Position numbers and translations under genes: made by a program. From positions 124,001 through 188,000 of the forward strand of contig NZ_JNWK01000005.1 of NCBI RefSeq assembly GCF_000716445.1: a DNA stretch of 64,000 nt, given 5' to 3'. The notes beneath the pieces were generated by a model that saw only the letters and a program-made list of their open reading frames with translations, was not told where the DNA came from and ran no database searches. The first letter of the stretch is position 1, and the number at the start of each line of letters is the position of its first letter. Of the stretch, positions 27,369 through 55,205 are shown one piece after another. Source of the DNA: Streptomyces wedmorensis. Lineage in GTDB: Bacteria; Actinomycetota; Actinomycetes; Streptomycetales; Streptomycetaceae.

Positions 27369-27386
27369 GCAGGCCCCGTGGCCTGC
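27369..27386 (+). terminator. Short hairpin after the lipase gene
   Basis: GCAGGCC and its complement are separated by the loop CCGT, 14 bases after the lipase stop. It probably ends the lipase transcript before the caspase/HSP90 gene. Confidence 0.6.
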
Positions 27387-36910: not shown

Positions 36911-37106
36911 CTGAGGACTCCAAGGCGCTTTGTCCACGAGCCCGGCCCGTCGGCGGTGGCAGGATCGTGCACGGTGCGGAGGCAGGAGCATGCCAACGGG
37001 GAGTCCTGTGGAGGAGGGGGTTCGCTGCGATGCTTCTGATGTGGTCGGGGATCTCGTCCCGGGCACCTCTGAGGAAACGGCGCCGGGCGCCGGGAGGGGA
37101 AGAACC

Positions 37107-37307: not shown

Positions 37308-37422
37308 TCCTGTGCGGCAAGCCCGCCACGGGGGGTGGGTCCAGCGGTCCGGGTGCCGAGCACGACGCGCGGCCCGCCGCCTTTCCAGTACCTCGTCACC
37401 GACCGACCGTGGAGCACCGCCG

Positions 37423-38220: not shown

Positions 38221-38222
38221 CG

Positions 38223-38240
38223 GCCGGGTCACACCCCGGC
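38223..38240. terminator. Hairpin between convergent regulator genes
   Basis: GCCGGG and CCCGGC arms around TCACAC, in the 38-bp gap between the two convergent paralogous regulators. A short direct repeat CTGTCAG follows on both sides of the next few bases. Confidence 0.5.
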
Positions 38241-38258
38241 TGTCAGATCCACCGACTG

Positions 38259-39245: not shown

Positions 39246-39423
39246 GTGGTGCACGAGCAAGAGGCACTCCCGTGGGAGAGGACGTCGGGAAGGATCCGGC
39301 CGGCGTGTGCTGCAGGAATTGTAGAAGGGAGGTGCCCGAAGGGTAAAGGTTTCCCCAGGAGCCCCTGGTGACTCAGCAGTAGGATCTCCGGCCCAGAAGC
39401 GATCAGGCCGGATCCTGCATCGG

Positions 39424-39443
39424 GTTGGCCGTATCTGGCCAAC
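39424..39443. promoter_or_regulatory. 20-bp inverted repeat in the LuxR-SARP intergenic region
   Basis: GTTGGCC and GGCCAAC are separated by GTATCT. A second repeat GTGTGGT-GCTG-ACCACAC lies at 39495-39512. Both are in the 360-bp gap 39246-39605 between the divergent LuxR-type and SARP genes, in which I see no gene. They are candidate operators for one or both regulators. Confidence 0.5.
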
Positions 39444-39605
39444 AGGCCTTGTTCCTCGCCGCCTTGGGCGCTGCCATATTCGGTCGTGAGGGAGGTGTGG
39501 TGCTGACCACACGACGCGAGGGGGACACGATGCCGCCGCCGGCGGCCCCTGCGGCCCGGGGCCGGTACCTGCCTCAGCACTTCACACGAGAGGTGGCAGA
39601 GCCAG

Positions 39606-40391
39606 ATGCTTTTCCGACTGCTGGGACCTGTGAGGATCGCGGGCGGTGCCGAGACGCAGTCGGCAGCCCGCCGCGCGCTGCTCACCGCGCTGCTCCTGCG
39701 CCGGGGACAGTTCGTCGGCATGGGCGAGCTGACCGAGCTGTTGTGGGACGACCCGCCGAGCTCGGCGGTGGCCAACATCAGGAGCCACCTCACCGGGCTC
39801 CGCCGCGGCCTGGACTCCGCGCTGCCGGGACTGAGCAAGCGGCTGACCACCAGCCGCGGCGCGGAGACCGGGTACGCCCTCAGCGTCGACGCGGACGAAC
39901 TCGATCTGTCCTGCTTCCTGAAGCTCGCCCGGAAGGGCAAGGAACTGCTCGCCGCGGGCGACCACCGGGCCGCGGTCAGCCACCTGGACGAGGCCCTCGC
40001 CCTCTGGCGCGGCCCGTTCGGCCAACGGCTCCCGGCCACCCGGTGGTTCCACGCGCATACCGTGGGCCTCAGCAACACCCGCTTCGAGGCCTGTCAGGAC
40101 TTCTTCACCGCCTGCCTGCTGACCCATCGGACCGAGATGCTCTCGTACCGCATCGAGACCGTGCTGGCCGAGGCCCCCTACCGGCAGCGGCTGTGGCAGT
40201 TGCTCGCCGCCACCTACTGCGCGCAGGGCGACGTGGCCGGCGCGCTGGGCGTGATCGAGCGATGTCGGACCGTCTTCGCCGACGAGCTGGGCCTGGACGT
40301 CCCTCCCGGCGTCGAGGCCATCCGGGCCGCCGCGCTGACCTGGGACACGGAGCGGGCGCACCGCCTGGTGGCCGAGATGGCGCGCCAGTGA
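39606..40391 (+). CDS. SARP-type pathway activator
   Basis: 261 residues. Residues 1-95 are an OmpR-like winged helix (MLFRLLGPVRIAGG, LLLRRGQFVGMGELTELLWD, SSAVANIRSHLTGLRRGL). Residues 105-250 are a BTAD helical domain (LSCFLKLARKGKELLAAGDH, EALALWRGPF, EAPYRQRLWQLLAATYCAQG, FADELGLDVPPGVEAI). Streptomyces antibiotic regulatory proteins of this compact form bind heptameric direct repeats upstream of biosynthetic promoters and recruit RNA polymerase. It overlaps the membrane protein gene (GTGA). By position it should activate the lanthipeptide operons. Confidence 0.9.
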   Translation: MLFRLLGPVRIAGGAETQSAARRALLTALLLRRGQFVGMGELTELLWDDPPSSAVANIRSHLTGLRRGLDSALPGLSKRLTTSRGAETGYALSVDADELDLSCFLKLARKGKELLAAGDHRAAVSHLDEALALWRGPFGQRLPATRWFHAHTVGLSNTRFEACQDFFTACLLTHRTEMLSYRIETVLAEAPYRQRLWQLLAATYCAQGDVAGALGVIERCRTVFADELGLDVPPGVEAIRAAALTWDTERAHRLVAEMARQ

Positions 40392-40933
40392 CGGCGGGCA
40401 TCCGGTCGGCCGGGTCCCGGGTCCGACGGCGACTTCGGTCGCTCGCGGTAGGGGAACTGGTCAACGTCCCGTTGCAGACGGCCATCTGGTTCGGCGTGGT
40501 CGGCGTGCCGGCGACGGCCGCCAACCTCTTCGGGTTCGCACTGGTCACGCTGCTCCTGCTGGAGGGCGCCGCGTACTGGACGGTCAAGCTCCGTGCCCTG
40601 TCCGCCGGCAGCGGCGCGCCGCTGCCCGGGGCTGCGGTGTTCGCCGCCGCTCGGGTGGTCAACCTCGTGCTGCTCGGGCTCGGCGTGCCGCTCACCGTTC
40701 TCGCGGTGGCCGACTCCCCCGGGACCGGGAGCATCCCGGGCCTGCTCTTCGCGCTCTTCGCCGTCCTGGAGCACGTCAACTATTTCCACACCCAGCTGAT
40801 GTACGACACTGCCGAGGACCGGCGCAGCCGCCGCAGGAACGGGCGGCGCCGGGCACATCTGGCCCGTGACCTGGAGCGGGCTCGGAAGCTCGGGAGCGGG
40901 CAACCGTCCGCCGACGAGGTCGGTCGCTCCTGA
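40388..40933 (+). CDS. Membrane protein, four TM, unknown
   Basis: 181 residues from the GTG that overlaps the SARP stop. Four hydrophobic segments are visible (QTAIWFGVVGVPATAANLFGF, then VTLLLLEGAAYW, VFAAARVVNLVLLGLGVPLT and IPGLLFALFAVLEHVNYF). The C-terminal 40 residues are strongly basic (RRSRRRNGRRRAHLARDLER). The coupling to SARP suggests a cluster-linked role such as immunity or transport. I do not recognise the family. Confidence 0.65.
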   Translation: MTAGIRSAGSRVRRRLRSLAVGELVNVPLQTAIWFGVVGVPATAANLFGFALVTLLLLEGAAYWTVKLRALSAGSGAPLPGAAVFAAARVVNLVLLGLGVPLTVLAVADSPGTGSIPGLLFALFAVLEHVNYFHTQLMYDTAEDRRSRRRNGRRRAHLARDLERARKLGSGQPSADEVGRS

Positions 40934-40961
40934 CGTCCCGGGCGGACAGTGACCGGCCCGG

Positions 40962-41918
40962 TCACGGTGCGGCCTTCAGGATCTCGTAGAGGTCGGACGC
41001 GGCGGCGCGGGGTCCGTGCACCGCGCCGACCCCGGTGACGTTGAGGACCACCTCGTCCACGCCGAGCGCCCGGTAGGCGTCCAGCCGCTGGTGGATCTCC
41101 TCGGCCGTCCCGTAGAGGAAGATCCCGCCGTCCACCAGGGCGCGGACGTCGTCGGGCCCGCCGTCGCCGGTGATCCTGATCCCGGCCCGCCGCAGGACGG
41201 CCTGGTAGTGGGGGAACTGGATGTGCCCCCCGCAGGTCGCCCGCAGCAGTTTCGCCATGTCCCGGTCGGGGCCGGCCAGTGCCACCGGAACGTAGGCGGT
41301 GACCTTGACCGGCTCCTCCGGACGCCGCTCCTTCGCGCTCCGCAGAGCCGGGATCAGGAACTTCTCCAGGTACGCCGCCGAGGCCATCCAGGTGATGGCC
41401 ACATCCGCGAGTTCTCCCGCGAGTTCGGCCATCCGCTCCCGCAGGACGCCGAGGCCCAGCGACACCTCCGGCTTGTGGAACGGCATGAGCTGCGCCTTGG
41501 CGGAGAAGATCTCCCCCTCGCGGTCGCTGATCCCGCCGTCCAGCAGGTCCCGGACGATGGTGACGTACTCCCGGCAGGCGGTGAGCTGACTTGGGTAGGG
41601 CCGTCCCATGGCGCAGGTCTGCGCGGCGAGCGAGCCCGGACCGTAGCCGGCCACCACCTCGTGCCCGGTGGCCAGCGCCACGGACCGGGCCTCGATCGCC
41701 GCGTTGTACGGCGAGCGGTAGGGCATCAGCGACACCCCGAACCCGGCGGGCACCCTGATTCCGGAGCCGGCCAACCAGCTCACGATGTGATGGCTGTCCA
41801 GAACGAGACCCTGGCCCTGCCACAGTCGGGCCGCGCCACCCCATTTGACGAGATTGGCGAAGGGGATCACCTGCTCGGGGCGGGTGGCGTTGACGGGGAG
41901 GAGGATCGAGTGCCGCAT
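40962..41918 (-). CDS. Luciferase-like (LLM) F420-type oxidoreductase, candidate lanthipeptide reductase
   Basis: 318 residues from the ATG at 41916-41918. The fold is a TIM barrel with LLM motifs: IPFANLVKWGGAARLWQGQG, GSGIRVPAGFGVSLMPYRSP, EARSVALATGHEVVAGYGPG and RALGVDEVVLNVTG near the C-terminus. F420-dependent LLM enzymes in lanthipeptide clusters (LanJC type, for example in lexapeptide biosynthesis) reduce dehydroalanine to D-alanine. This gene is the last of the lanA2-lanT2-lanM2 run, 47 bases after lanM2, which supports that role. F420 rather than FMN use is inferred. Many bacteria use LLM enzymes otherwise. Confidence 0.75.
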   Translation of the reverse strand: MRHSILLPVNATRPEQVIPFANLVKWGGAARLWQGQGLVLDSHHIVSWLAGSGIRVPAGFGVSLMPYRSPYNAAIEARSVALATGHEVVAGYGPGSLAAQTCAMGRPYPSQLTACREYVTIVRDLLDGGISDREGEIFSAKAQLMPFHKPEVSLGLGVLRERMAELAGELADVAITWMASAAYLEKFLIPALRSAKERRPEEPVKVTAYVPVALAGPDRDMAKLLRATCGGHIQFPHYQAVLRRAGIRITGDGGPDDVRALVDGGIFLYGTAEEIHQRLDAYRALGVDEVVLNVTGVGAVHGPRAAASDLYEILKAAP

Positions 41919-41965
41919 CCCGGCAGCCCTTTCGACGAGTGGTGGAGCGGATGACAGGCGGGCGG

Positions 41966-44785
41966 TCAGCTCCGGGAAGGCGCGGACAGTTCCAGCGGGA
42001 GGCGCAGACCGGCCGGGTCCGCGCCGCTGAGCAGGGCGTCGACCATCAGGTCGGTGTCGCCCACGCCGGCCCAGCCGAGCATGTAGCCGATCAGTGAGGT
42101 CCGGCCGGCCGCGCCGGTGAAGTAGCCGTCCTCGCGGATCCGGCCGAGGACCTCGGTCTGATGGGCGGCGGCCCGCTCGAACAGGTCCGCGCGTCCCAGG
42201 GTGCGGCCCGCGCCGATCAGGCACTGGACGACGCCGCTGCTGCCGTGGCAGACGGAGAGGTCCACCGCGCGGCCGGGCGCCAGGGCGGTCGCCCGGCCGA
42301 CCAGATCGGCCAGCCGGGACTCGGTCAGCCAGTCCTCCCGGCCCGCCGCGACGAGGATCTCCGAGCCGGCGAGCAGGAGGCCGGCAGCGCCCTTGCACCA
42401 GCCGTGCTCCGCCGGGACGCCGTCCCGCTCCCAGCGGCCGATCAGCCAGTCCGCCGCCTCCTTGGCGGTGCGCTCCAGTCCCAGAACGGATCCGGTCCGG
42501 GCGGCCGCCCAGCGCAGTCCCAGTTCGCCGTGGGCCAGGTCCGACCAGTGGGTGTCCCGCTCCCTGCCCAGGTGGGACAGGGTCAGGTCGGTGAGCCGCT
42601 CGACCGTCGCGGCGTCGGCGGGGAAGGAGGAGCCGTCGCGGCGGAGACGGTCGAGCAGGACCATCAGCAGCCCGGCCGGGCCGTTGGAGAGGTCGGTCTC
42701 CAGCTCGCCTTCCGCCGCGCGGTCCTGGAGGGCCTGGAGCAGGCCGGCCATCCGGGCGGACGCGGTCTCCGGGTCCTCGGGTCGGACCAGCAGGAGCGAG
42801 GCGGCCCCGGTGAACACCGACTCGGGGCGCTGGAGCAGCGCCTCGCCGTACTCGGCGAGCAGGGTGGTGAGCCCCCGGTCGGCGCTGCCGGCCGGGCCGG
42901 CCAGGCTCCCGTCGCGGGCGGCGGCGCGGTTGAGGAAGGAGACCACGCCGGCCGAGTCGTGGAAGGAGACGAAGTTGCCCGGGGTGATGGTGGAGGCGTC
43001 GCGGTCCGGGCCGATGCCGCCGACCCAGCCGCACTCCTCCTGTCCGCCGGGACCGGTGACCGGCACCCGCACCTCGGCGATCCGGCCGGCGATCGCCCGC
43101 CACCAGGCGCCGGGACGGGCCCCGGCCAGCAGGTGCCCCCCGAAGACCCCGGAGGCCGAGAGCCCGCCGGGCGTGTCCTCGCCGCACAGCTCGCCGAAGC
43201 ACTCCTCGAGCAGGAAGTGGTGGTAGGCGTCGGTGCGGGCCGCGTTGTGGGCGACGCCGCGCCGGGCGAAGTCCAGCGCGGTCGCCGAATACACCCCGGG
43301 TGTCGACCCGTTGACCGTGCCGAGCGCGTCGGAGTCGCCCCGGGTGACGAAGTACGGCACGTTGCCGCCGTGCAGCGAGGCGCGCTCCGCTTCCGCCGCG
43401 AAGCGCTCCGCCTCCGGGGACAGGTAGTCCTGGTGCATCTTCAGGAGTCCGAACAGCCGCTCGGCCTCCTTGGGGTCCACCAGGTACTTCGGGTGGGTGG
43501 AGGCGTCGATGAAGCGACCGTAGATCATGGTGGAGCGCAGCAGCAGCCGCACCGGCACCCCGGGGTGGGCCTCCAGGACGCGGGTGACGACGCCGTCCCG
43601 CAGAGCCGTCAGGGCCGCACGGCAGCCGGCCAGGATGGCGTCGAACCAGTCGGTGGCGATCAGGTGCGTCTCGCCCAGCCGGGGCACGTTGTCGCCCTGC
43701 CGGTAGTTGAAGGGCTCCCGTGACACCGAGATGGCGTCCGTTCCCGGGTCGCGGATCACGGCGCTGGTCATGGACGACGGCTGGTCGCCCGCCACTCCGA
43801 CGCCCGCCATGATGAAGTCGACCGGCGAGGTCGGGTTCACCATCGGCACCAGCATCGTGGAGGCGACGGACAGCTTGGTGTGGTTCATCAGCGCGTCGGG
43901 GAGCGACTCGTCGCCCACCCCGGCGTCCGGCCGGAGCATGGTCTCGGTGTCGATGACGCACGGGTGTTCGCCGCAGGCCAGCAGGTTCTCGTCGTGCAGG
44001 TCGGTGGCGCCGATGGAGCCGAACAGCACCGCCAGCGCGCCGATCCGGTAGAAGTAGCGGGCGGGCTGGTCCGCCTGCTCCATGGCGGCCGGCACGGTGA
44101 ACTCCTGCCAGCCGTGCGTGCCCACGGTGAACGACCGGGGGACGCAGCGGGACAGCGGGTGCTCCAGGTACGGGCCGACCGCCCGGTACAGGTCGCGGAC
44201 GAAGTCGTCCGCGGTGAGCGGCCGCGGCTTGAACACCAGTCCGGTCCCGTTGGCCAGGTGGAGAATGTGTACCTGACGGCTGTCGTTGTGCAGGTCGGAG
44301 CCGCTGGGCGAGATCGCGGACAGCAGCCGGCCCTCGTCGCCCGGCTCGCCGAGCAGTCCGGCCTCCGCCAGCAGCGGGTGGTCGTCGGCGAAGGCGGTGA
44401 GGAACTCGCAGTAGGCGTCCAGGGAGTGGGACAGCATCGCGGTCAGTCGCAGCCGCAGCACCGGGTACTTCTCCAGCAGGGCGTCCGGGGTGCCGGGCTC
44501 CTCCAGACGGGCCGTGAAGCGGCGCAGGGCGGTGTCGCCGCCGGACTCCATCGGTAGGCCCAGCTGCTCGCGGAAGGCGTGGAACTCGCCGATGAGCATC
44601 CGGTAGGACTGCGTCTCCACCGTTTTCAGCAGGGCCTCGTGGGCCTGGTCCAGCACGCTGTCGCGGCGGTCCGGGACGGCAGCCCGCAGCAACGGCTCGC
44701 GCAGCTCCTTCTCGACCGCGGACCGGGGGACCACATGGGAGTAGAAGGGGAGGAAGGCCTCGATGGCCACCATGTTCTCGCTCAT
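41966..44785 (-). CDS. lanM2: Class II lanthipeptide synthetase LanM (second copy)
   Basis: 939 residues. The N-terminal dehydratase half has the kinase-like catalytic segments ATDLHDENLLACGEHP and VIDTETMLRPDAG, which phosphorylate and eliminate Ser/Thr. The C-terminal cyclase half is LanC-like with Zn ligands in GWCKGAAGLL and SVCHGSSG (Cys, Cys-His). Its ATG overlaps the lanT2 stop (ATGA). It is expected to act on the beta-like precursor encoded three genes upstream, dehydrating its Ser/Thr and forming thioether rings with its four Cys. Sequence similarity to LanM1 is only moderate by eye, so the two are probably substrate-specific. Confidence 0.92.
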   Translation of the reverse strand: MSENMVAIEAFLPFYSHVVPRSAVEKELREPLLRAAVPDRRDSVLDQAHEALLKTVETQSYRMLIGEFHAFREQLGLPMESGGDTALRRFTARLEEPGTPDALLEKYPVLRLRLTAMLSHSLDAYCEFLTAFADDHPLLAEAGLLGEPGDEGRLLSAISPSGSDLHNDSRQVHILHLANGTGLVFKPRPLTADDFVRDLYRAVGPYLEHPLSRCVPRSFTVGTHGWQEFTVPAAMEQADQPARYFYRIGALAVLFGSIGATDLHDENLLACGEHPCVIDTETMLRPDAGVGDESLPDALMNHTKLSVASTMLVPMVNPTSPVDFIMAGVGVAGDQPSSMTSAVIRDPGTDAISVSREPFNYRQGDNVPRLGETHLIATDWFDAILAGCRAALTALRDGVVTRVLEAHPGVPVRLLLRSTMIYGRFIDASTHPKYLVDPKEAERLFGLLKMHQDYLSPEAERFAAEAERASLHGGNVPYFVTRGDSDALGTVNGSTPGVYSATALDFARRGVAHNAARTDAYHHFLLEECFGELCGEDTPGGLSASGVFGGHLLAGARPGAWWRAIAGRIAEVRVPVTGPGGQEECGWVGGIGPDRDASTITPGNFVSFHDSAGVVSFLNRAAARDGSLAGPAGSADRGLTTLLAEYGEALLQRPESVFTGAASLLLVRPEDPETASARMAGLLQALQDRAAEGELETDLSNGPAGLLMVLLDRLRRDGSSFPADAATVERLTDLTLSHLGRERDTHWSDLAHGELGLRWAAARTGSVLGLERTAKEAADWLIGRWERDGVPAEHGWCKGAAGLLLAGSEILVAAGREDWLTESRLADLVGRATALAPGRAVDLSVCHGSSGVVQCLIGAGRTLGRADLFERAAAHQTEVLGRIREDGYFTGAAGRTSLIGYMLGWAGVGDTDLMVDALLSGADPAGLRLPLELSAPSRS

Positions 44786-46986
44786 GCCCCGGCACCTTCC
44801 ACCAGCAGTTCGGCCGTCCGGCCGGCCCCATCGGCTGTCGCCGCGTACAGGTCCCGGTACACGCTGCCTCCGTCCATGAGTTCTGAATGTGTTCCCTGCT
44901 CGACGATCCGGCCCTGGTCGAACACGTAGATGAGGTCGGCGGACTCGATCGTCGACAGGCGGTGCGCGATGACGATCTGGGTGGCGCCGATTCCCTCGAT
45001 CAGCCGGGTCACCCGGCGTTCGTTGACCGTGTCCAGGGAGGCGGTGGCCTCGTCCATGACGAGGATGGACGGCCGTTGCAGGAGGGTGCGCACGATCGCC
45101 AGCCGCTGCCGCTGCCCCCCGGAGAAGTTGGAGCCCATCTCGGCGACCAAGGTCTGCAGACCCATCGGCAGGTCGTCGAGGAAGTCCAGGATGCCGGCCT
45201 CGCGGCAGAACTCCCGGACGGTCTCCTCGGGGATGTCCTGGCCCAGGGTGAGGTTCTCCAGGATCGACCGGTTGTGCAGGTGGACCTCCTGCGGGATGTA
45301 GCCGATCACTCGGCGCAGGGAGTCCCGGTCGTACTCGCCGGCGTCCCGGCCGCCGAAGCGGACCGAGCCGGAGGTGGGTTCGTGCAGGCCGCAGACGATC
45401 CGGGCCAGGGTGCTCTTGCCCGACCCGGAGGCGCCGACCAGGGCGACCCGGGCGCCGGCCGGGATGTCCATGGTGACGTCGCGGACCACCGGTTCGCTGT
45501 GCCGGGTGTAGCGGAAGGACACCTGGTCCAGTTGGACGGAGGCGGACTCCAGCTCCTTGCGGTCGCCGCCATGGCCCTCGGGCTCGGTGCGGGTGATGTC
45601 GCTCAGGCGGGACATGTAGCGGCTGGTCTCGGTGAACTCCGCGTACGCCTGGAACACCGAGGTGGAGATCGCGAAGTAGGTGGCGGCGACGGTCTGCACC
45701 GCGATCGCCCCGCCGATGCTGATGGTTCCCCGGCCGACGAAGTAGAGGCTGGCGAGCAGCAGCAACAGCGGCCCGAACATCTGGATGGTGGCCGCCACAC
45801 CGGTCACCTGGCCCTGCTGCAGCCGCATCCGCGCTTTCATCGCGTCGAGGGAGGCGGCGTAGGTCTCGCGCCAGGTGTCCAGGTACTGGTCGGCGTAGCC
45901 GCCCATCTTGATGGTCGGGATGGAGACGATGGCGTCCAGCTGCAGCGACTGGCTCCTGCCCAGGTGGGTGATCTCCATGTCGACCGCCTCGAGCACCCGC
46001 AGTCGGGTGGCGGCCAGATAGCCGGCGTTGCCCAGCACCAGGGCGAGCGCCATCAGCCCGAGCCGCCACTCCACGTGCAGCAGGTAGCCGCTGACGCAGA
46101 CCATGGTGCCGACGTCCAGCACGCCCTGGGCGACCCGGGAGGAGAGCATGTCGCGGACGGCGTTGACGCTGCCGAGCCGGAAGAGCAGCTCGCCTGGCTG
46201 ACGGGTGGTGAAGAACCGGTACGGCAGCAACAGCAGCCGGGTGAAGGCGTGGTCCATCAGATGCCGCCCGAGCACCGACACCAGCGAGGACAGCAGCAGG
46301 ATCCTCAGGAGATGCAGCAGGTAGTAGCCGACGGCGGCGCCGACCACCATGCCGATGACCCACAGGTGGTCGCCGAGCTCCGTCCAGCCGGAGAACCGGT
46401 CCACGGACCATTCGGTGAGCAGCGGGATCCCCAGCACCGCGGCGTAGGCGGCCAGCGACAGCGCGCCCACACCGGCCATCCGGCGCCCCGCGCCCTCGGG
46501 CAGCAGGGGCATCGTCCGCCAGTCGGCGAAGGGCCGGCGGCGCAGCCGGCGGAACGCGGGCCCGGGCTCGGCGGTGAGGACCACGCCGCTGAAGTGCCGG
46601 GCGAGTTCGTCCGAGGTCATCCGGCGACGGCCGACGGCCGGGTCCATGACGACGGCCTGATCGCCGTCGAAGCTCTCCAGGACCACGAAGTGGTGATCGT
46701 CCCAGAAGAGGATCACGGGCGAGTCGAACCGGGTGAGCGCTGCGACGCTCCGGGCGCTCAGCAGCCGGCTGCGCATGCCGCGGGACTCCAGGAACCGCGC
46801 GAGCTGCCGGGCGCTCAGGCCGTCCCGTCCCGCGTCCATGTCCTCGCGGACCTCGGAGATGCCTTCGTCCCGCCCGTAGTAACGGAGCAGGGACACGCAG
46901 CAGCACAGACCGCACTCGGTCTGGGCGACCTGGGTGACGGCCGGCACGCGTCGCGCGGTCCGACGTGATTCCGGGCGAGCGCCCAT
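44782..46986 (-). CDS. lanT2: Lanthipeptide ABC exporter with C39 peptidase (second copy)
   Basis: 734 residues from the ATG at 46984-46986, preceded by GGAGG; a longer in-frame start at 47020 has no ribosome site. The C39 peptidase has Cys25 in QTECGLCC, the His region HHFVVLESF and Asp in VMDPAVG. Six membrane segments lie between residues about 165 and 430. The ATPase has Walker A GASGSGKST, signature FSGGQRQRL and Walker B LVMDEATASLD. It cleaves the double-Gly-type leader and exports the modified peptide. The lanA2 gene is the likely substrate source. Confidence 0.92.
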   Translation of the reverse strand: MGARPESRRTARRVPAVTQVAQTECGLCCCVSLLRYYGRDEGISEVREDMDAGRDGLSARQLARFLESRGMRSRLLSARSVAALTRFDSPVILFWDDHHFVVLESFDGDQAVVMDPAVGRRRMTSDELARHFSGVVLTAEPGPAFRRLRRRPFADWRTMPLLPEGAGRRMAGVGALSLAAYAAVLGIPLLTEWSVDRFSGWTELGDHLWVIGMVVGAAVGYYLLHLLRILLLSSLVSVLGRHLMDHAFTRLLLLPYRFFTTRQPGELLFRLGSVNAVRDMLSSRVAQGVLDVGTMVCVSGYLLHVEWRLGLMALALVLGNAGYLAATRLRVLEAVDMEITHLGRSQSLQLDAIVSIPTIKMGGYADQYLDTWRETYAASLDAMKARMRLQQGQVTGVAATIQMFGPLLLLLASLYFVGRGTISIGGAIAVQTVAATYFAISTSVFQAYAEFTETSRYMSRLSDITRTEPEGHGGDRKELESASVQLDQVSFRYTRHSEPVVRDVTMDIPAGARVALVGASGSGKSTLARIVCGLHEPTSGSVRFGGRDAGEYDRDSLRRVIGYIPQEVHLHNRSILENLTLGQDIPEETVREFCREAGILDFLDDLPMGLQTLVAEMGSNFSGGQRQRLAIVRTLLQRPSILVMDEATASLDTVNERRVTRLIEGIGATQIVIAHRLSTIESADLIYVFDQGRIVEQGTHSELMDGGSVYRDLYAATADGAGRTAELLVEGAGA

Positions 46987-47181
46987 GGCTACCGCACCTC
47001 CGGGTTGTTGGACATCGGGCAAGGAGAGGGGCTTGCGTTGACGGGGCGTCGGACGGGGCGGGAGACCGGGAATCCCGGCGCGGGCAGTCGGACCTCGGTC
47101 CGGCCCGTCCCCACCCCGTCCGTCGCGACCGACGCGGCGGTCCGGTTCAGCGGGCCGCGCGTATCAGAGCCGTCAAGGGCT

Positions 47182-47355
47182 TCAGCACTGGCTGGTGCAC
47201 TTGGTGGTCGGGCAGGCGGAGGCGGACACCAGGGTCGCCACGGCGGTGACGATGGCGCAGCTCCAGGTGGTACCGCCGTACACGTCCGCCTCGCCCATCT
47301 CGACGAGCTCGAACTCGTCGTAGCCGCCGAGGACGTCGGCCTGAATCTTCTCCAT
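47182..47355 (-). CDS. lanA2: Lanthipeptide precursor, beta-like
   Basis: 57 residues. AAGGAG lies before the ATG at 47353-47355. The leader MEKIQADVLGGYDEFELVEM plus GEADVYGG (28 residues) ends in double Gly. The 29-residue core begins TTWSC and ends CPTTKCTSQC, with Cys at core positions 5, 20, 25 and 29 and 11 Ser/Thr. Haloduracin beta begins TTWPC and ends CPTTKCTSQC; lichenicidin beta ends CPTTKCTSRC. The middle of the core (AIVTAVATLVSASA) differs and is longer than in haloduracin. It should be the membrane-inserting half of a two-component lantibiotic, modified by LanM2. Confidence 0.9.
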   Translation of the reverse strand: MEKIQADVLGGYDEFELVEMGEADVYGGTTWSCAIVTAVATLVSASACPTTKCTSQC

Positions 47356-47530
47356 GGTCTTCTCCTTTTCGAATTTCTTCCGACATGCGCCCGCAACTCG
47401 TCTTGCGAAATGCGGAACGCATGCCCTCCGTCTTCGGAGGACGCCTCCAAGTCTGTCCGCCCCCAATTCGCCGAACGCATAGACCTGGCACCCTTGTACG
47501 CACACGCTGAAATGCACCGGAAAACGCGCC

Positions 47531-47558
47531 GGGCCCCCACGCATTCGCGTGGGGGCCC
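47531..47558 (-). terminator. Terminator after the ABC immunity genes
   Basis: GGGCCCCCACGC and its complement form a perfect 12-bp stem around ATTC. It lies about 30 bases beyond the permease stop and about 175 bases before the lanA2 start. It separates the lanA1 operon from the lanA2 unit, so lanA2 needs its own promoter. Confidence 0.8.
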
Positions 47559-47587
47559 ATTCACGGGGTGCGAGGTTCGTCGACCCC

Positions 47588-48325
47588 TCAGACATCCCGC
47601 CGGACGGTCGTCCAATGCCCGAGCGCCACCGCCCCCACCGTCCACACGGTGAGCACGCCAAGACCGGACCACGCTCCCAGCACCTCGTCGCCCCCTGAGC
47701 CGCGCAGCACCATCCCCCCCGCCACATCCGGCAGGAACCGTGCCACCTCCCCGACCCCCGGTATGTTGCTCAGGATCGTGGAGAGCATGAAGAACAGCGG
47801 AAGCAGAATGGACAGCGCCGCCGCCCCCGACCGCAGCAGCGTCGCCACTCCCATGGAGAACGCCACCAGCAGCGCCGTGTAGAGCACCGCCCCCGCCACA
47901 TGCCCCGCCGTGGCGAGTCCCGCCGGCGCCCGGTGCTCCCCGATGCCGCTCTGCACGATCAGGAAGGCCGGCACCACGCCCACCACCGCCAGCACCCCGC
48001 TGACCAGGCTGACAAGACCCACCTTGGCGTAGTAGAACCGGGCCCGGTCGGGGACGGCCAGCAGACTGCTCCTGATCGACCCCGACGCGTACTCGCCCGT
48101 CACCGCGAGAATCCCCATGATCACCAGAACGATCATCCCGAGCGGTACGGCCGACAGGCCGAGCCCGACCGGGTCGAACCCCGGCGCCGTCAACTGCTTC
48201 TCGCCGGGAACCATCCCGTAGACGAAGGCCAGTCCGATCATCAGGACGAGATAAACCGCCGGGGACCATTTCGGAGAGCGCAGCGTCGTCAACTTGACCC
48301 ATTCCGCGGCCAGGGCATGCCTCAT
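47588..48325 (-). CDS. lanE: ABC transporter permease (lantibiotic immunity)
   Basis: 245 residues. It is an ABC-2-type permease with six membrane segments, starting MRHALAAEWVKLTTLRSP and containing YASGSIRSSLLAVPDRARFY, the cytoplasmic loop typical of LanE/LanG-type permeases. Its ATG overlaps the ATPase stop. With the ATPase it would expel mature peptide from the membrane and protect the producer. Gene naming follows position; LanE versus LanG cannot be told apart here. Confidence 0.85.
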   Translation of the reverse strand: MRHALAAEWVKLTTLRSPKWSPAVYLVLMIGLAFVYGMVPGEKQLTAPGFDPVGLGLSAVPLGMIVLVIMGILAVTGEYASGSIRSSLLAVPDRARFYYAKVGLVSLVSGVLAVVGVVPAFLIVQSGIGEHRAPAGLATAGHVAGAVLYTALLVAFSMGVATLLRSGAAALSILLPLFFMLSTILSNIPGVGEVARFLPDVAGGMVLRGSGGDEVLGAWSGLGVLTVWTVGAVALGHWTTVRRDV

Positions 48326-49239
48326 CAGAACCCTCCCGTCGAAGCCCGGTATTCAGCGTGTTCCTGGGTCAGCTTCATAAACGCCTCCTCCAGCGAACCG
48401 GATGAAGCGGTCAGCTCGAAGACGGCGATACTCTCCGCGCTCGCGACGAGCCCCACCTTCTCCACGGACACCCCGCTCACCGCCAGCGTCGCGTCGTCCT
48501 GCCGCACGGACTCGATGCCCTGCTCCCGCAGTGCCCGCCGCATCCCCTCCGGATCGGCCACCCGGGCCAGCACGGTCCTGTCCGAGTTCGCGGCGATGAA
48601 CGCGTCCACGGGGGTGTCCGCGAGCAGCCGGCCCCGGGCGACGACCACCAGATGGTCTGCGGTCACCGCCATCTCGTTCATCAGGTGGGAGGAGACCAGC
48701 ACCGTCCGCCCCTCCGCGGCCAGCCCCCGCATCAGCTCCCGGATCCACCGGACACCCTCGGGGTCGAGCCCGTTGACCGGCTCGTCGAACAGCAGCACCT
48801 CAGGGTCGCCGAGCAGCGCCGCCGCGACGCCGAGCCGCTGCCCCATGCCGAGGGAGAACCCGCGCACCCTCTGCCGGGCCACCGCGAGCAGGCCGACCCG
48901 GTCCAGTACCTCGTCCGCCCGGGTGGCGGGCAGGCCGTGGGAGGCTGCCAGCACCCGCAGGTGGTTCCGGGCACTGCGGCCCGGGTGCACGGCCCTGGTG
49001 TCGAGCAGCGCTCCCACCCGGGTCAGCGGGCGCGCCAGGCTCCGGTAGGGGACGCCGAGGACGGTGGCCCGGCCCGCGGTGGGCTCGTCCAGACCGAGGA
49101 TCATGCGCAGGGTGGTGGACTTGCCGGCGCCGTTGGGGCCGAGGAATCCGGTGACCTTCCCCGGCGTCACGGAGAACGACAGACCGTCCACGGCGACCTT
49201 CGCGCCGTACCGTTTGGTGAGGTTCTCGACCTCGATCAT
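48325..49239 (-). CDS. lanF: ABC transporter ATPase (lantibiotic immunity)
   Basis: 304 residues from the ATG at 49237-49239 (AGAGG upstream; GTG 49242 is an alternative). Walker A LGPNGAGKSTT, signature FSLGMGQRLGVAAAL, Walker B EVLLFDEPVNGLDPEG and switch His in SSHLMNEM. Residues 220-304 form a C-terminal regulatory domain common to LanF and BcrA. It pairs with the overlapping permease. It sits between the lanT1 and permease genes in the lanA1 operon. Confidence 0.88.
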   Translation of the reverse strand: MIEVENLTKRYGAKVAVDGLSFSVTPGKVTGFLGPNGAGKSTTLRMILGLDEPTAGRATVLGVPYRSLARPLTRVGALLDTRAVHPGRSARNHLRVLAASHGLPATRADEVLDRVGLLAVARQRVRGFSLGMGQRLGVAAALLGDPEVLLFDEPVNGLDPEGVRWIRELMRGLAAEGRTVLVSSHLMNEMAVTADHLVVVARGRLLADTPVDAFIAANSDRTVLARVADPEGMRRALREQGIESVRQDDATLAVSGVSVEKVGLVASAESIAVFELTASSGSLEEAFMKLTQEHAEYRASTGGF

Positions 49240-49294
49240 CACAGCACCTCTCGTCCATGAACAGTCGTGACCGTCATGCCATGCCCACCGGCCC

Positions 49295-51436
49295 TCATAC
49301 GGCCCCGGCCACCGGCTCCGCGTACAGCCCCGCGTACACCCCGCCCAGGGCCAGCAACTCCTCGTGCGTCCCCCGCTCCACGATCCGGCCGCGGTCCAGT
49401 ACGTGGATCAGGTCCGCGTCCTGGATCGTCGCCAGCCGGTGCGCGATGACGATCTGCGTGGCGCCGGTCTCCGCGATGATCCGGGAGACCCGCCGCTCGT
49501 TGGCGGTGTCCAGCGAGGCGGTCGCCTCGTCCAGGACGATGACCCGCGGCCGCTGCAGCAGTGTCCGCACGATGGCCAGCCGCTGCCGTTGCCCGCCGGA
49601 GAAGTTGGAGCCCATCTCGGACACCAGGGTCCGCAGCCCCATCGGCAGTTCCTCGACGAAGTCGAGGATCCCCACGGCCGCGCAGTACTCCCGGACGGTG
49701 GCCTCGTCGATGTCCTGGCCCAGGGTCAGGTTCTCGAGGATGGTGCGGTTGTGCAGGTGCACCTCCTGCGGGACGTACCCGATCTGCCCGCGCAGGAAGT
49801 CGGTCCGGTAGGCGCTCATGGGGTGGCCGCAGAACTCCACCGCCCCTCCGGTCGGCTGGTGGAGCCCGCAGACGACGCGCCCGACGGTGGACTTGCCCGA
49901 ACCCGACGCGCCGACGAACGCCACCTTCGCACCGGCCGGGATCTCCAGCGACACGTCCTCCAGCACCGGCCTGCTGTGCCGGGTGTAGCGGAACGACACC
50001 TCCCTCAGCCGTATCGAGGTGTCGTGGAGTTCCGTGAGGGGCCCGCCCTCCGGCTCGCTCTCGTGCGCCGTGATGTCGCTCAGCCGGCTCACGTAGCGGG
50101 AGGTCTCCGTGATCTCCGTCAGCATCTGGAAGACGGACGTGCTCAGGGCGAAGAAGGTGCCCGCCACGGCCTGCACGGCGATGGCCGAGCCGATGGTCAC
50201 CGTCCCCCGCGACACGAAGTGCAGGCCGGCGAGCAGCAGCGCCAGCGGGCCGAACATCTGCGTGGTGGCGGCGATTCCGGAGATCCAGCCCTGCTGGATC
50301 CGCATCCGGGTGCGCATCGCGTCCAGCGAGGCGCCGTAGGTCGCCTCCCATTCGTCGGCGAACCGGCCGGCGTAGCCGCCCATCTTGATGGTGGGGACGG
50401 ACACGATGGCGTCGAGCTGCGTGGACTGGGAGCGGGAGAGCAGCGCGAGCTCGGTGTCCGTCACCTCTTTCACCCGGTGCCGGCTCAGCCACAGGAAGCC
50501 GGCGTTCAGCAGGAACAGCGCGAGCGCCAGTAGGCCGATGCGCCACTCGGTGACGAACAGGTAGACGCCGATGCAGGCCAGGGTCCCCACGTCCAGGACG
50601 CCCTGGGCGATCCGCGAGGAGAGCAGGTCCCGGACGCTGTTGACGGTGTTCAGGCGGAACAGCAGCTCGCCGGGCTGCCGGGTGGCGAAGAACTTGTACG
50701 GCAGGGAGAGCAGTCTCCTGAAGACATGGCTCATCAGGTGATGGCCCGTCACGGCGATCAGCCCCGCCAGCGCGGCGGTGCGCAGCATCCACAGCAGCAG
50801 GTAGCCGATCGCGGCCGCCGCCACCGCCCCCGCTATCAGCCCCGTCTGGGACAGGTCGCTCCAGGCGTCGTCCCGGTCGACGGCCCATTTGGTCAGCGCC
50901 GGTATGCCCAGCACCGCCGCGTAGGAGCCCAGCGACAGCAGGGCGACCAGCGCGATCCGGCGGCCCGCCCGGGCCGGGACCAGCGGCAGCGACCGCCAGT
51001 GCCGGAAAGCGGGGAGGGACTGCCGGGTGAAGTCCGGGCCGGGGGAGGCCGCGATGACCACCTGGGAGAAGCCGGCCTCCAGCTCGTCGCGGGTGAGGCG
51101 CTTGCGGCCCACGGCCGGGTCCATCACCCAGGCCGTCGTGCCGTCGAAGCGCTCCAGGACCAGGAAGTGGTAGTCCTCCCAGAAGAGGATCACCGGCTCG
51201 GTGAAGCCCCGCAGTGCCTCCACGCTCCGGGCCCGGAACGCCTTGACCTCCATGCCCCTCGAGCGCAGGAAGTCCACGAGCTGCTTGGCACCGAGTCCGT
51301 CCCGGCCGGCCTCCAGGTCCTCCCGCACGGTCCGGAAGTCCTCGGTGCGGCCGTGGTACCCGAGCACCGCGACGCAGCAGCACAGCCCGCACTCCGTCTG
51401 GGTGACCTGGGTGACGGAGGGAACCCGGTGGCCCAT
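49295..51436 (-). CDS. lanT1: Lanthipeptide ABC exporter with C39 peptidase (first copy)
   Basis: 713 residues; the ATG overlaps the lanM1 stop (ATGA). C39 peptidase residues are Cys16 (QTECGLCC), His (YHFLVLERF) and Asp (VMDPAVGRK). The membrane domain has six segments, and the ATPase carries Walker A GASGSGKST and signature FSGGQRQRL with Walker B IVLDEATASLD. It is a close relative of LanT2. The adjacent precursor's leader ends YGA, so this peptidase must accept GA rather than GG at the cleavage site. Confidence 0.92.
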   Translation of the reverse strand: MGHRVPSVTQVTQTECGLCCCVAVLGYHGRTEDFRTVREDLEAGRDGLGAKQLVDFLRSRGMEVKAFRARSVEALRGFTEPVILFWEDYHFLVLERFDGTTAWVMDPAVGRKRLTRDELEAGFSQVVIAASPGPDFTRQSLPAFRHWRSLPLVPARAGRRIALVALLSLGSYAAVLGIPALTKWAVDRDDAWSDLSQTGLIAGAVAAAAIGYLLLWMLRTAALAGLIAVTGHHLMSHVFRRLLSLPYKFFATRQPGELLFRLNTVNSVRDLLSSRIAQGVLDVGTLACIGVYLFVTEWRIGLLALALFLLNAGFLWLSRHRVKEVTDTELALLSRSQSTQLDAIVSVPTIKMGGYAGRFADEWEATYGASLDAMRTRMRIQQGWISGIAATTQMFGPLALLLAGLHFVSRGTVTIGSAIAVQAVAGTFFALSTSVFQMLTEITETSRYVSRLSDITAHESEPEGGPLTELHDTSIRLREVSFRYTRHSRPVLEDVSLEIPAGAKVAFVGASGSGKSTVGRVVCGLHQPTGGAVEFCGHPMSAYRTDFLRGQIGYVPQEVHLHNRTILENLTLGQDIDEATVREYCAAVGILDFVEELPMGLRTLVSEMGSNFSGGQRQRLAIVRTLLQRPRVIVLDEATASLDTANERRVSRIIAETGATQIVIAHRLATIQDADLIHVLDRGRIVERGTHEELLALGGVYAGLYAEPVAGAV

Positions 51437-54375
51437 CAGAGGGCTCCGTGCCAGATCGGCGACACCCGGGGCCGCGCGTCGTCGAGGCGGCCGAGCAGGT
51501 GCAGCAGCACACCCGAGGAGCCCACCATGGCGCTGTCGGTGTGCGCGTAGCGGGAGCCGGTGTCGGCGAGCTTCTCCGCGACCACGTCAGGTCCCAGCCG
51601 GCGCGCCTCGACGGCGGCGGCCCGCTCCGACAGCTCCTGGTCGTCGCCGGCGATCCGGCGGACCACGTCGATGTTGCCGAGGTCGCCGTGGCACCAGGTG
51701 AGGTTGCGTCCGAAGCCCTGCCGGAAGGTGTTGTCGAGGGCCGCCTCCAGGCGCTCGGCGGCCCGTTCGTCCGCTGTCCGGGCGGTCACGGCGGACAGCG
51801 CCATGGCGATGCCGGCGGCGCCGTGACACCAGCCGGTCGAGAACCGGCCCGGGAAGGCGGAGTTGGTGGACCAGTTCCGCTCCCGGGGCACGTAGAAGGA
51901 CTCCAGACGGTCCGTCAGGACGCCGATGGCGGCGTCGACGCGGTGTCCGGGGTGGTCGGGCAGCGTGGCGAGGGCGTGCAGGACTCCCGCGACGCCGTGC
52001 GCGAAGCCCGACTGCTCCCACCAGGAGCCCGACGGTTCCTCCACATGGGCCAGCAGCCGGCCGGTGAGCCCGTCCAGGGCGTCGAGGCTGTGGTCGCCGC
52101 CGATCGAGGCGATCATCGTGGCGATGCCGGAGATCCCGGAGATCACCTCCGGGGTGTTCTCGGGGCCGATCTGTTCCACGACCAGCGGCACGGCGTCCTG
52201 TGCCGCCTTGACCCAGCCCGGCTCCCGCAGGATTCGCCCGGCCTCGCACAGGGCGAACAGCAGGCCGGTGGTTCCGGTGTAGGCGCCGGCGCCGCTCTGC
52301 CGGATGCTGCGCAGCTCGTAGACGCCGTCGGTGAGGATGCCGGCGCTGCGCTCGAAGACCTGGCGTGCCACCCGCTCGTAGCGTTCGTCGCCGAAGTGGG
52401 CCGCGGCCGCGGCCAGGGCCAGCGCGGGGCCGGTGCGTCCGGTGTACAGGTCGTACCCCAGGACGCCGGAGGGCCAGGGCCGGGCGGCCTGCGCGGAGGC
52501 CAGCGGGCCGATCCAGGTGGCGGGGAGATGACCGTACTGGTCGGGGAGGCTGCCCGCGGTCAGGGCGTCGGCCAGCGACCGGGCGAGCCGCTCCAGGCCG
52601 GTGCGGTCTCCGGTGGAGGTCCGGCCGTTCCAGGCGGTCCCGCCGGAGAGGTGGTTGTCGGGGAAGCGGGAGCAGAAGGCCGAGTGGAGCAGCCGTAGCT
52701 GCCGCCTGACCGCCTGCTCGTCGAGCGCCGCGGCCTTGGCCAGCGCCCGGGAGAGCGGGGTGCGGTCGAGCCGGACGCCGGTGTCCTCGCCGTCGCAGTC
52801 GTGGACGGTGGTGCCGGTGGCGGGCACGGTGAAGTAGGGGACGTCGCGTTCGGCCATCTGCCGCAGTTCCGAGCCGACCAGCCTGCGGTCGGAGAACCGG
52901 GAGGGGATGGCGATCCTGTGGAGCAGGGCCTGGGCGAGGGCCGGGTCGGCCATCGCGGCGGCGGAGGCCGCCATCCGCAGGATCTGCGCGTACTGCGACG
53001 TCGGGTTGTGGATGTAGCGGAGGCGCATGGCCGGAGCGAGCTCCTCCAGCAGGGTGGTCCACCAGGAGGGCCGGCGCATCACCGCCTCGCAGACCTGCCG
53101 GAACCCGTCGGCCATCTGTCCGGCGAGCCCGTGGATCTCCTGTTCGGTGCTCTCCCGGACCACGGTGGAGCGCTGCTCGGACGGGCGGGCCTGGAGGTGC
53201 ACCCGGATCCGGTCGGTGAAGGGGTGCTCGAAGACCATGGTCTTGAAGGGGGAGACGCCCTGGTTGTCGCCGCCGAGGAAACCGAGGTCGACGTAGCCGG
53301 AGTCCTCGTTCTTGCCGGCCAGGACCAACGGGAGGATCCCGATGCCGTAGACGCTGCGGCCGATCTCGTCGTACGCGTTGCCCTCGGCCTCCGGGGTGGG
53401 GCCGGTGTGCACCCGGGAGGGGTGCAGCAGCGTCTCGAGGTCGATGGCCACCGGGCCCCGGCGGGTGGGCAGGATGTTCTCGAAGTGCATGTCCCGCGCG
53501 TCCAGCAGGTAGAACACGGCGGCCAACTGGCCGCAGGCCCGCATGAACGGCACGCTGAATCCGCCGATGTCCTCCTGTTCGACGTACTCGACGTACCCGT
53601 ACCCGTCGCGCACCAGGGTGCGGGCGGCGGGCAGTGCGCAGTCGGCCTCCGCGTTGACGCGCTCGACGACGGTCTCGAAGGCCGCCTCGCAGGAGACGTC
53701 CCGGGGCTTGTGGACCAGGCGGGCCCCCGAGGCGAACGTCAGGATGCTCACCGCCCTGCCGTGGGCGTGCGAGTCGCCGTCGGCCCCGCCGATGGACAGC
53801 AGCGGGTCGCCGGGGGCGATGCCGGAGAACCGGAACACCTCGTCCCGGTCGGCGTGGAGGCGCCGGACCAGTTCGCGCGCGGCCTCGCGGGCGTTGCGCA
53901 CCACATGGCCGGCCGCGGAGCGGAGCACCGGGAAGGGCTCCAGGGCGTCTCTCCACACCCGGGTGACGAAGTCCTGGTAGCGCTCCTGCGGGGTCGCTCC
54001 CCGCAGCAGCCCGTCGGTGGAGGCCTTGTTGACCGCCGCGACCAAGGTACGGGTCGCCACGTCGCGGAGCCGGGCCTCGGCCCGGCCGAGCACCTGGAGC
54101 GTGAAGGCGTCCAGGTCGGCGACGGCCTCCGTGAGGTCCTCGGGGAGGAGCCCGCCGGCGGTCGGCAGTGCCAGCTGCCGGATCACGCGCTGGAACGGAT
54201 ACTCCTCCGGCTCCAGCGACCAGGCGAGCGCGGCCGGCGAGGGGACCTCTGGAGCGACGTCGGACGGAGCCGAGAGCTTGACGTGGACGGCGGGCGCGAA
54301 AACTCCGAGGGGCTCGATGGTTTCGCGGATTTCGACGCTGTCGAGTTCTGGGTAAAGATTCGCGGGCGAGATCAA
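51436..54375 (-). CDS. lanM1: Class II lanthipeptide synthetase LanM (first copy)
   Basis: 979 residues. The start is probably TTG at 54373-54375 with CGGAG just upstream; no ATG is well placed. The dehydratase has LLDARDMHFENILPTRRG and AIDLETLLHPSR. The cyclase has Zn ligands in STGWCHGAAGIAMAL and TWCHGDLGN. It is 120 bases downstream of lanA1 with a hairpin between them. It should modify the alpha-like precursor. A TTG start is a possible translational brake on the enzyme relative to the precursor. Confidence 0.9.
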   Translation of the reverse strand: MISPANLYPELDSVEIRETIEPLGVFAPAVHVKLSAPSDVAPEVPSPAALAWSLEPEEYPFQRVIRQLALPTAGGLLPEDLTEAVADLDAFTLQVLGRAEARLRDVATRTLVAAVNKASTDGLLRGATPQERYQDFVTRVWRDALEPFPVLRSAAGHVVRNAREAARELVRRLHADRDEVFRFSGIAPGDPLLSIGGADGDSHAHGRAVSILTFASGARLVHKPRDVSCEAAFETVVERVNAEADCALPAARTLVRDGYGYVEYVEQEDIGGFSVPFMRACGQLAAVFYLLDARDMHFENILPTRRGPVAIDLETLLHPSRVHTGPTPEAEGNAYDEIGRSVYGIGILPLVLAGKNEDSGYVDLGFLGGDNQGVSPFKTMVFEHPFTDRIRVHLQARPSEQRSTVVRESTEQEIHGLAGQMADGFRQVCEAVMRRPSWWTTLLEELAPAMRLRYIHNPTSQYAQILRMAASAAAMADPALAQALLHRIAIPSRFSDRRLVGSELRQMAERDVPYFTVPATGTTVHDCDGEDTGVRLDRTPLSRALAKAAALDEQAVRRQLRLLHSAFCSRFPDNHLSGGTAWNGRTSTGDRTGLERLARSLADALTAGSLPDQYGHLPATWIGPLASAQAARPWPSGVLGYDLYTGRTGPALALAAAAAHFGDERYERVARQVFERSAGILTDGVYELRSIRQSGAGAYTGTTGLLFALCEAGRILREPGWVKAAQDAVPLVVEQIGPENTPEVISGISGIATMIASIGGDHSLDALDGLTGRLLAHVEEPSGSWWEQSGFAHGVAGVLHALATLPDHPGHRVDAAIGVLTDRLESFYVPRERNWSTNSAFPGRFSTGWCHGAAGIAMALSAVTARTADERAAERLEAALDNTFRQGFGRNLTWCHGDLGNIDVVRRIAGDDQELSERAAAVEARRLGPDVVAEKLADTGSRYAHTDSAMVGSSGVLLHLLGRLDDARPRVSPIWHGAL

Positions 54376-54419
54376 TGCTCCGGCTCCCTGCGCGGAAGGT
54401 GATAGATTGCCACGTTGCG

Positions 54420-54456
54420 CCGGGGGCGGGGAGCATGAGCCGCTCCCCGCCCCCGG
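54420..54456 (-). terminator. Attenuating hairpin between lanA1 and lanM1
   Basis: CCGGGGGCGGGGAGC and its complement form a perfect 15-bp stem around a 7-base loop, 22 bases after the lanA1 stop and 45 bases before lanM1. Such hairpins limit read-through from precursor into enzyme genes and stabilise the precursor mRNA. Confidence 0.8.
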
Positions 54457-54477
54457 TCACTGCCAAGCCCTTCGGGC

Positions 54478-54648
54478 TCAGTTGCAGTTGGGCTGGCACT
54501 CCTTGGTCAGCGTGCACCAGCCGCCCTGGTTGCCGAGGAAGTCGGACAGCGAGAACGTGTTGGTCGAGCACGCGCCGTAGGCGACGCCGTCGAAGTCCTG
54601 CTCCGCGATCTCCTCGATGAGCGAGATGTCACCGTCGAAGTTGTTCAT
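54478..54648 (-). CDS. lanA1: Lanthipeptide precursor, alpha-like (mersacidin-type)
   Basis: 56 residues from the ATG at 54646-54648. The acidic leader MNNFDGDISLIEEIAEQDFD plus GVAYGA (26 residues) ends in a GA double-Gly-type site. The 30-residue core begins CSTNTFSLSDFLG and ends CTLTKECQPNCN, with Cys at core positions 1, 19, 25 and 29. CTLTKEC is the lipid II-binding motif (CTLTxEC) of mersacidin and haloduracin alpha, whose C-terminus is CTLTVECMPSCN. It is therefore the lipid II-binding half of a two-component lantibiotic. First gene of the operon lanA1-M1-T1-F-E. Confidence 0.9.
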   Translation of the reverse strand: MNNFDGDISLIEEIAEQDFDGVAYGACSTNTFSLSDFLGNQGGWCTLTKECQPNCN

Positions 54649-54660
54649 GTGAATTCACAT
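54647..54660. promoter_or_regulatory. Perfect 14-bp palindrome at the lanA1 start codon
   Basis: ATGTGAATTCACAT overlaps the first bases of the lanA1 start and its weak ribosome site (GGATG). A regulator bound here could block translation initiation or early transcription. It may also be coincidental. Confidence 0.45.
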
Positions 54661-55205
54661 CCAATCCGACCGCATATAACCAATGGGCCATTCTGCGGAA
54701 AAATTTGACCCACGGCCCGTCGCCCGGCTGAGCGACGAGGGAAAGCTATGCGCGTCGATAGCCAGTCCACAACCCGTCGATTGCCCGGCGGGTCACCGGA
54801 ATACGTTTCCGGTGATGCTGCGCGAGCCATCGGTGACGCCGTTGACCTGCGGCTTCGATGCCATGTGGCCGAATCCTGCCAGGGTGCTGGCAACTTGGTG
54901 CAGTTCATTTCCCCACGGATTCGTGCACGGCCGTATGCGCGACCGGATGCACTGGATATGCGCGGCGAATAGGGGGCCGAATGCGATCGGCCAATTTCCG
55001 CTCGCGACACTTCCGCGGCCGTAGATCATCCCCGTGACACGGCCGGCCGGTCCGCGCCCGGCAGGAAGCGATCCGGCAGCCATGGCTGCCGGCCGCACTC
55101 GACGGCCCCGAACTATGGGGTCCCACCACATACGCCGGTGACCAGCGCGTTCCTACGGTGTGGCGACACCCAAACGTCCCCGCAACCCGCCCGGAAGTGG
55201 TGCTC
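54661..55205. other. 545-bp intergenic region upstream of lanA1
   Basis: I see no convincing gene here: the frames that are open lack codon bias, ribosome sites and family resemblance. The sequence is A/T-richer near 54661-54720 (minus-strand TTATAT near 54675 with AATTTTTCC upstream), a plausible lanA1 promoter and SARP-binding region. The MHS transporter start is at 55206 on the other strand. Confidence 0.5.

Follow-up and report, generated by a model that had tools for sequence, protein, structure and literature searches.

A two-component lantibiotic cluster with two LanM/LanT pairs, apparently assembled from halves of two ancestral clusters

A nine-gene locus at positions 40962-54648 of the window (the whole 64,000-nt stretch analyzed here, from a genome of 9.38 Mb) is probably a two-component lantibiotic cluster of the lacticin 3147/birimositide type, in which two parent clusters were joined with complementary gene loss and two production lines were left. 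All nine genes lie on the minus strand, in the order alpha precursor, LanM_a, LanT_a, ABC ATPase, and ABC permease (together unit 1), followed, beyond a hairpin, by beta precursor, LanT_b, LanM_b, and a luciferase-like oxidoreductase (unit 2). The natural reading of this stretch is a two-component class II lantibiotic in which each peptide has a LanM/LanT pair to itself, and the gene lineages support that pairing; the match of enzymes to substrates, the formation of D-Ala, the synergy of the peptides, and the specificity of the exporters are what we infer. A chance arrangement of the genes is excluded, since this set of nine genes recurs, in unchanged order, in nine genomes. The second LanT stands out as the unusual part of the cluster, the two halves of which appear, from gene relationships, to descend from two different ancestral clusters.

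Gene content and transcription units

Both precursors named in the original prediction are present, as are its two LanMs and two C39 LanTs. The alpha precursor (54478..54648; 56 aa) scores 39.6 bits against Pfam Lantibiotic_a (cut-off 27) and 51.8 bits against NF000539, has a leader that ends in ..VAYGA, and is 96-100% identical across the eight other genomes with the two-LanT arrangement; CTLTKEC in its core fits the lipid II motif CTxTxD/EC given in PMC10027976. The beta precursor (47182..47355; 57 aa), whose leader ends in ..DVYGG and whose core ends in CPTTKCTSQC, reaches 71.8 bits against the NCBIfam model NF038161, LchA2/BrtA2 (cut-off 26), and GCC motifs are absent from both cores. LanM_a (51436..54375; TTG start), a class II lanthipeptide synthetase that probably acts on alpha, matches DUF4135 at 262 bits and LANC_like at 147 bits, and LanM_b (41966..44785), probably the synthetase for beta, matches them at 253.7 and 58.6 bits; against TIGR03897 (cut-off 304) the two score 489.9 and 313.2 bits, the latter narrowly above the threshold. 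The two synthetases share 25% identity over 823 columns, the cyclase Cys and Cys-His-Gly motifs can be read in both sequences, and LicM2 is the best match for either among solved structures. Each exporter combines a C39 peptidase with an ABC transporter: LanT_a (49295..51436), of the NRRL F-5630 lineage, at 88.5 bits for Peptidase_C39 and 108.7 for ABC_tran, and LanT_b (44782..46986), on the Streptomyces regalis side, at 100.8 and 112.5 bits.

The remaining functions named in the original prediction fared less evenly. Its immunity genes correspond to a probable self-protection ABC pair, of which the ATP-binding protein (48325..49242) matches ABC_tran at 90.2 bits and the TIGR03740 lantibiotic protection model at 185 bits, under its cut-off of 309.75, and the partner permease (47588..48325) matches PF12679 at 26.3 bits, slightly under the cut-off of 27.2, and has the same neighbor in those relatives that carry the ABC pair. 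The proposed F420-type reductase is a luciferase-like protein (40962..41918; PF00296, 83.2 bits) and a LanJC candidate for conversion of dehydroalanine (Dha) to D-Ala; F420-type models are its best NCBIfam matches, with scores under their cut-offs. The SARP regulator is real (BTAD, 95.8 bits; 90-99% identity in the other eight two-LanT genomes) and lies beyond the range given for the predicted cluster, at 39606..40391 on the plus strand, and the supposed LuxR regulator has as its candidate a probable, weakly LuxR-like regulator at 38259..39512 (minus strand; GerE 13.4 bits, cut-off 23.5). This protein shares 42% identity over 264 residues with another probable regulator at 37312..38220 (plus strand; TrmB 17.7 bits, under the cut-off of 25.6), and both are kept in all nine genomes.

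The two halves are divided by a hairpin in the gap between the ABC permease and beta genes (47531..47558, minus strand), a probable terminator judging from folding and pair conservation. It forms 11 to 13 pairs with a fold z-score of -3.62 for 86 nt, and its pairing is kept in 88 of 88 cells of eight aligned sequences, in which 2 of 11 pairs are altered on both sides. On five measures of covariation, three were reached by 2 of 500 shuffles, the count of covarying pairs by 132, and the count of pair types by 382. The stretch preceding beta is alignable in 9/9 genomes and, together with the hairpin, suggests that beta has a promoter of its own. A promoter consensus scan found none, with 0.5 expected by chance, and a terminator consensus scan found one terminator-like site against 2.9 expected; the hairpin itself was found by reading and folding.

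Ancestry of the two halves

The genes of the two units have different closest relatives. When similarity scores were ranked among named actinobacterial loci (9 to 22 sequences per gene; G064, G124, G682, and Firmicutes not among the candidates), all five unit-1 genes placed Streptomyces sp. NRRL F-5630 first and all four unit-2 genes placed S. regalis first, for each of the four genomes, out of the nine, that served as queries; the margins of alpha and the ABC permease are small. Maximum-likelihood trees give F-5630 as the sister of LanM_a (support 100/100) and its LanT as the sister of LanT_a (95.8/97), and S. regalis copies as the sisters of LanM_b and of the oxidoreductase (100/100 each). 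One tree unites LanT_b and S. regalis with 100/100 support; in two further trees LanT_b falls just outside S. regalis plus others, and in one of these the sister placement costs only 0.58 log units. In a midpoint-rooted tree the window ABC permease joins F-5630; in the ABC ATPase tree F-5630 joins other relatives (86.1/91), apart from the window's group. The S. regalis contig ends after the oxidoreductase and offers no ABC pair for comparison, and F-5630 and S. regalis are the single complete representatives of their lineages. A truncated cluster of the F-5630 type occurs on contig C1 of G064 (L105, L106), with a partial LanM_a, a whole LanT, and a partial LanM_b; precursor genes were not detected there. 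AU tests reject LanT_b with F-5630/G064, LanT_a with S. regalis, LanM_a with S. regalis, and LanM_b with F-5630 (p 5.8e-7 for the last), marginally disfavor the oxidoreductase with F-5630 without rejecting it (p-AU 0.0545), and do not reject the broad group {LanT_a, LanT_b, F-5630, G064} (p-AU 0.138).

Several histories could in principle yield such a locus. Had a single conventional two-component cluster undergone local duplication of lanT and relocation of beta, its additional LanT would be an in-situ copy, the simplest way to two copies, and LanT_a and LanT_b are indeed members of one family with 64% identity; their monophyly, however, was rejected both with fast searches (AU test, p 0.0017) and in a fuller search of 17 of 30 sequences (p-AU 0.0002), so that the LanTs are not in-place duplicates, and LanM_a and LanM_b also trace to different lineages, which leaves this account highly improbable. 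Two independent single-peptide clusters lying side by side, with products that do not act jointly, would fit the two apparent transcription units, which are separated by the hairpin and comprise one LanA, LanM, and LanT apiece. Yet 23 of the 24 one-LanT loci hold alpha and beta with two LanMs and one LanT, a single ABC pair and a single oxidoreductase stand for both halves, and the halves occur together in all nine genomes; independence of the two is accordingly improbable.

The gene orders of the relatives bear on how the halves came together. In F-5630 the order is alpha, beta, LanM_a, LanT, LanM_b, oxidoreductase, ABC, ABC, which, minus beta and the LanM_b-oxidoreductase stretch, gives unit 1; in S. 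regalis it is alpha, beta, LanM_a, LanT, LanM_b, oxidoreductase, and then the contig end, which, minus alpha and LanM_a, gives unit 2. Unit 1 would come from an F-5630-type parent (probably so for its ABC pair), and unit 2 from an S. regalis-type parent. The pieces that would have been lost are complementary, so that each function is kept once and LanT alone is kept twice. A resident S. regalis-type cluster that gained an F-5630-type half by recombination, with two whole clusters never present, would yield an identical lineage pattern and agrees with the absence of lost-gene remnants; such an exchange alone nevertheless leaves the presence of a LanT from both lineages unexplained, for which an imprecise exchange could account, and we consider it unlikely, if the most serious competitor. 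It is the complementary pattern of the losses that makes us favor joining with complementary loss above a half-cluster exchange. As no convincing remnants of the lost genes were found in seven comparisons over four intergenic stretches (best z 2.4), this route is one that we infer.

Distribution, mobility, and known relatives

A LanM_b scan of the named genome collection returned 35 loci, 31 of which hold both LanMs and a LanT (left out were L059, with no LanM_a within reach, L071, L072, and L073). The cluster has one LanT in 24 of the 31 (19 actinobacterial and five Firmicutes loci), of which several lie on contigs so short that a second LanT could escape notice, and two LanTs in the window's order are present in seven (Streptomyces sp. 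NBC_00572, S. sp. Root431, S. griseoluteus, S. flavochromogenes, S. exfoliatus, S. sp. R302, and S. termitum). A LanM_a search of the genus, matched by 18 of 392 genomes, adds G692 with the window's gene order, for nine genomes in total with the two-LanT arrangement, the window's included. The only one-LanT locus without both precursors detected is L070, where beta was not found. Counted over the scored part of the first-look candidates only, the beta model is present in at least 11 genomes among the 295 sampled from the genus, a count that includes the window genome, and in at least 2 of the 396 sampled across the phylum, namely the window genome and one congener. Among these loci, L053, L054, and L058 carry tandem near-identical beta genes alongside a single alpha. 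In L056 (Actinoplanes sp. M2I2), one of the 24 loci with a single LanT in the cluster, a different LanT and LanM pair (16985-21681) adjoins the two-component genes and is encoded on the opposite strand, and it is possible that two adjacent unlike lanthipeptide clusters of this kind represent a stage before fusion.

The cluster and its regulators lie in an 18.2-kb block (36908..55072) that, in blastn comparisons with four genomes, is common to the genomes as a unit with differing flanks; its edges fall at 36908-36910 on the left and 55034-55072 on the right in 4/4 genomes, and a long flank in common with the window was seen in G692 only. The composite seems, by alignment, to travel as one 18.2-kb piece. 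No exact direct or inverted repeats of at least 12 bases were found at the block edges in five genomes, and 11-base repeats occur in two. In G004 (L027, L028), sequence resembling the beginning of the MFS gene of the window (55080-55302) was found over 223 bases on the other side of the block, to its left in window orientation.

Presence of the oxidoreductase follows the alpha motif among 27 actinobacterial loci with LanM_a, where detection means similarity to the window protein within the fetched flank: it occurs in 22/22 loci whose alpha has TFSLS (window included) and in 0/5 without it, or in 15/15 and 0/5 when two-LanT genomes are counted once. Few independent co-occurrence events underlie these counts, because the five TFSLS-less loci are relatives of one another. 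Those five (L048, L049, L050, L052, L061), in which alpha lacks the TNTFSLSD core and the oxidoreductase went undetected, form a divergent actinobacterial subgroup. In five Firmicutes loci TFSLS is present and a luciferase-like oxidoreductase was not detected. A luciferase-like protein in a lanthipeptide cluster and a target Ser in the precursor are both found in the window, and the oxidoreductase fits a LanJC that would reduce Dha formed from the TFSLS Ser; as it comes from the beta half, its activity, if directed at alpha, would cross the lineage boundary.

Much of what the cluster contains is already known: two-LanM Streptomyces clusters, both precursor families, and LanJC have all been described (PMC3951391; PMC7268733). 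Three two-LanM two-component clusters were predicted in Streptomyces by Singh and Sareen in 2014 (PMC3951391), and birimositide of S. rimosus was reported by Walker et al. in 2020 as synergistic and with a LanJC (PMC7268733), and roseocin, the Streptomyces example in the original prediction, does not stand alone. That prediction also named two LanTs without noting their rarity or the different lineages of the halves. In the openly licensed literature, covered mostly as titles and abstract starts, no account was found of a two-component cluster whose two LanTs differ in ancestry, and the one paper found on clusters with two LanTs concerns a LanT elsewhere in a Ktedonobacter genome.

The cluster combines a lipid II motif, an LchA2/BrtA2 beta, and two dissimilar LanMs, as expected of the group, with two C39 LanTs in place of the single shared one that is usual, not defining. 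It resembles birimositide (cluster sequence MT037000), by its published description likewise a class II two-component lanthipeptide of an actinobacterium with a LanJC of the luciferase-like kind (PMC7268733), and the family model of the window beta, NF038161, is named LchA2/BrtA2. Birimositide alpha is itself described as similar to lacticin 3147 alpha, and in lacticin 3147 LanJA takes part in the Dha-to-D-Ala step (PMC7268733). LanMs of low identity are a further likeness to the lacticin 3147/staphylococcin C55 group, at 25% in the window and a quoted 24-29% (PMC10027976). The N-terminal core of the window alpha, TNTFSLSD, occurs also in five Firmicutes relatives (L066-L070), all five of which differ from the window in having one LanT and no luciferase-like enzyme detected. 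This core is like that of lacticin 3147 alpha itself. The likening of the precursors to those of haloduracin or lichenicidin holds for the LchA2-family beta (match to lichenicidin beta, 2kto, weak at 14.8 bits) and for the alpha C-terminus, which matches lichenicidin A1 in the PDB at 21.4 bits, but not for the N-terminal half of alpha, which is of the lacticin 3147/birimositide type; the oxidoreductase is a further difference. Among the clusters predicted by Singh and Sareen, that of S. viridochromogenes DSM 40736 likewise has two precursors, two LanMs, and a flavin-type monooxygenase, but a single LanT between the two LanMs (PMC3951391); a locus of that strain recovered here, L051, agrees in order. 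By description, the window's peptides may also be akin to the II 4 and II 49 precursor families, in which lichenicidin-alpha-like precursors are paired with beta peptides in Actinobacteria (PMC7268733). The roseocin family comprises actinobacterial two-component lantibiotics, including a two-LanM subtype in Micromonosporaceae, yet roseocin alpha lacks CTxTxD/EC and roseocin precursors contain the GCC motifs of the family, which the window's do not (PMC10027976).

Proposed function and implications

With two production lines, LanM_a would dehydrate and cyclize alpha, LanM_b would do likewise for beta, and each peptide would be cut after the GA or GG end of its leader and exported through its own C39 LanT. 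The luciferase-like enzyme would reduce the dehydroalanine of alpha (from the Ser of TNTFSLSD), and perhaps that of beta too, to D-Ala; outside the cell, alpha would bind lipid II and beta would complete the pore, with the ABC pair shielding the producer. As one LanT serves both peptides in relatives, the second LanT of the window may be redundant. Both LanTs nonetheless seem to be kept working, given that the nine genes are without stops within the matched stretches in 9/9 genomes and that pairwise dN/dS is low: at most 0.42 wherever defined (five pairs per gene), with values of 0.06-0.16 for LanT_a, 0.19-0.28 for LanT_b, 0.23-0.32 for LanM_a, and 0.32-0.42 for LanM_b, and with too few changes in the precursors to judge and some ratios undefined. 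The LanT membrane domains show, in both copies, 2.3-2.6 times as much change as the nearest relatives; specialization of the LanTs is not claimed from these rates, because the ratio is similarly raised for LanM_b (2.5) and the oxidoreductase (2.0) and the sister of LanT_b is not fixed in that tree.

A bolder reading, which we hold tentatively and at somewhat less than an even chance, is that the cluster is a cross-lineage hybrid: alpha and beta of two different lantibiotics would form a new pair, each served by a LanM and a LanT selective for its leader; the one oxidoreductase, inherited along with beta, would act on an alpha derived from the other parent; and the whole would move between chromosomal sites as an 18.2-kb unit. 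If right, nature would have performed the mix-and-match sought by RiPP engineers, with alpha and beta of different parents in one producer and two complete processing and export lines in one cluster, and the fusion of two clusters followed by complementary gene loss would be a way for RiPP clusters to evolve. The cluster would also offer a direct test of the leader selectivity of C39 LanTs and of the exchange of alpha/beta partners across lineages.

Elsewhere in the window, a Tn3-type transposase is divided over two overlapping frames (15034-16853, plus strand), a resolvase-like protein found along with it lies at 20758-21687, and the GC minimum falls at 16-18 kb. Three further LANC-like matches occur in the same genome, on contigs C10, C33, and C35. 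Lastly, a 1781-aa protein (27378-32723, plus strand) carries a caspase-like domain, iHD-CE, and an HSP90-associated winged helix, a domain make-up that recalls bacterial conflict systems.
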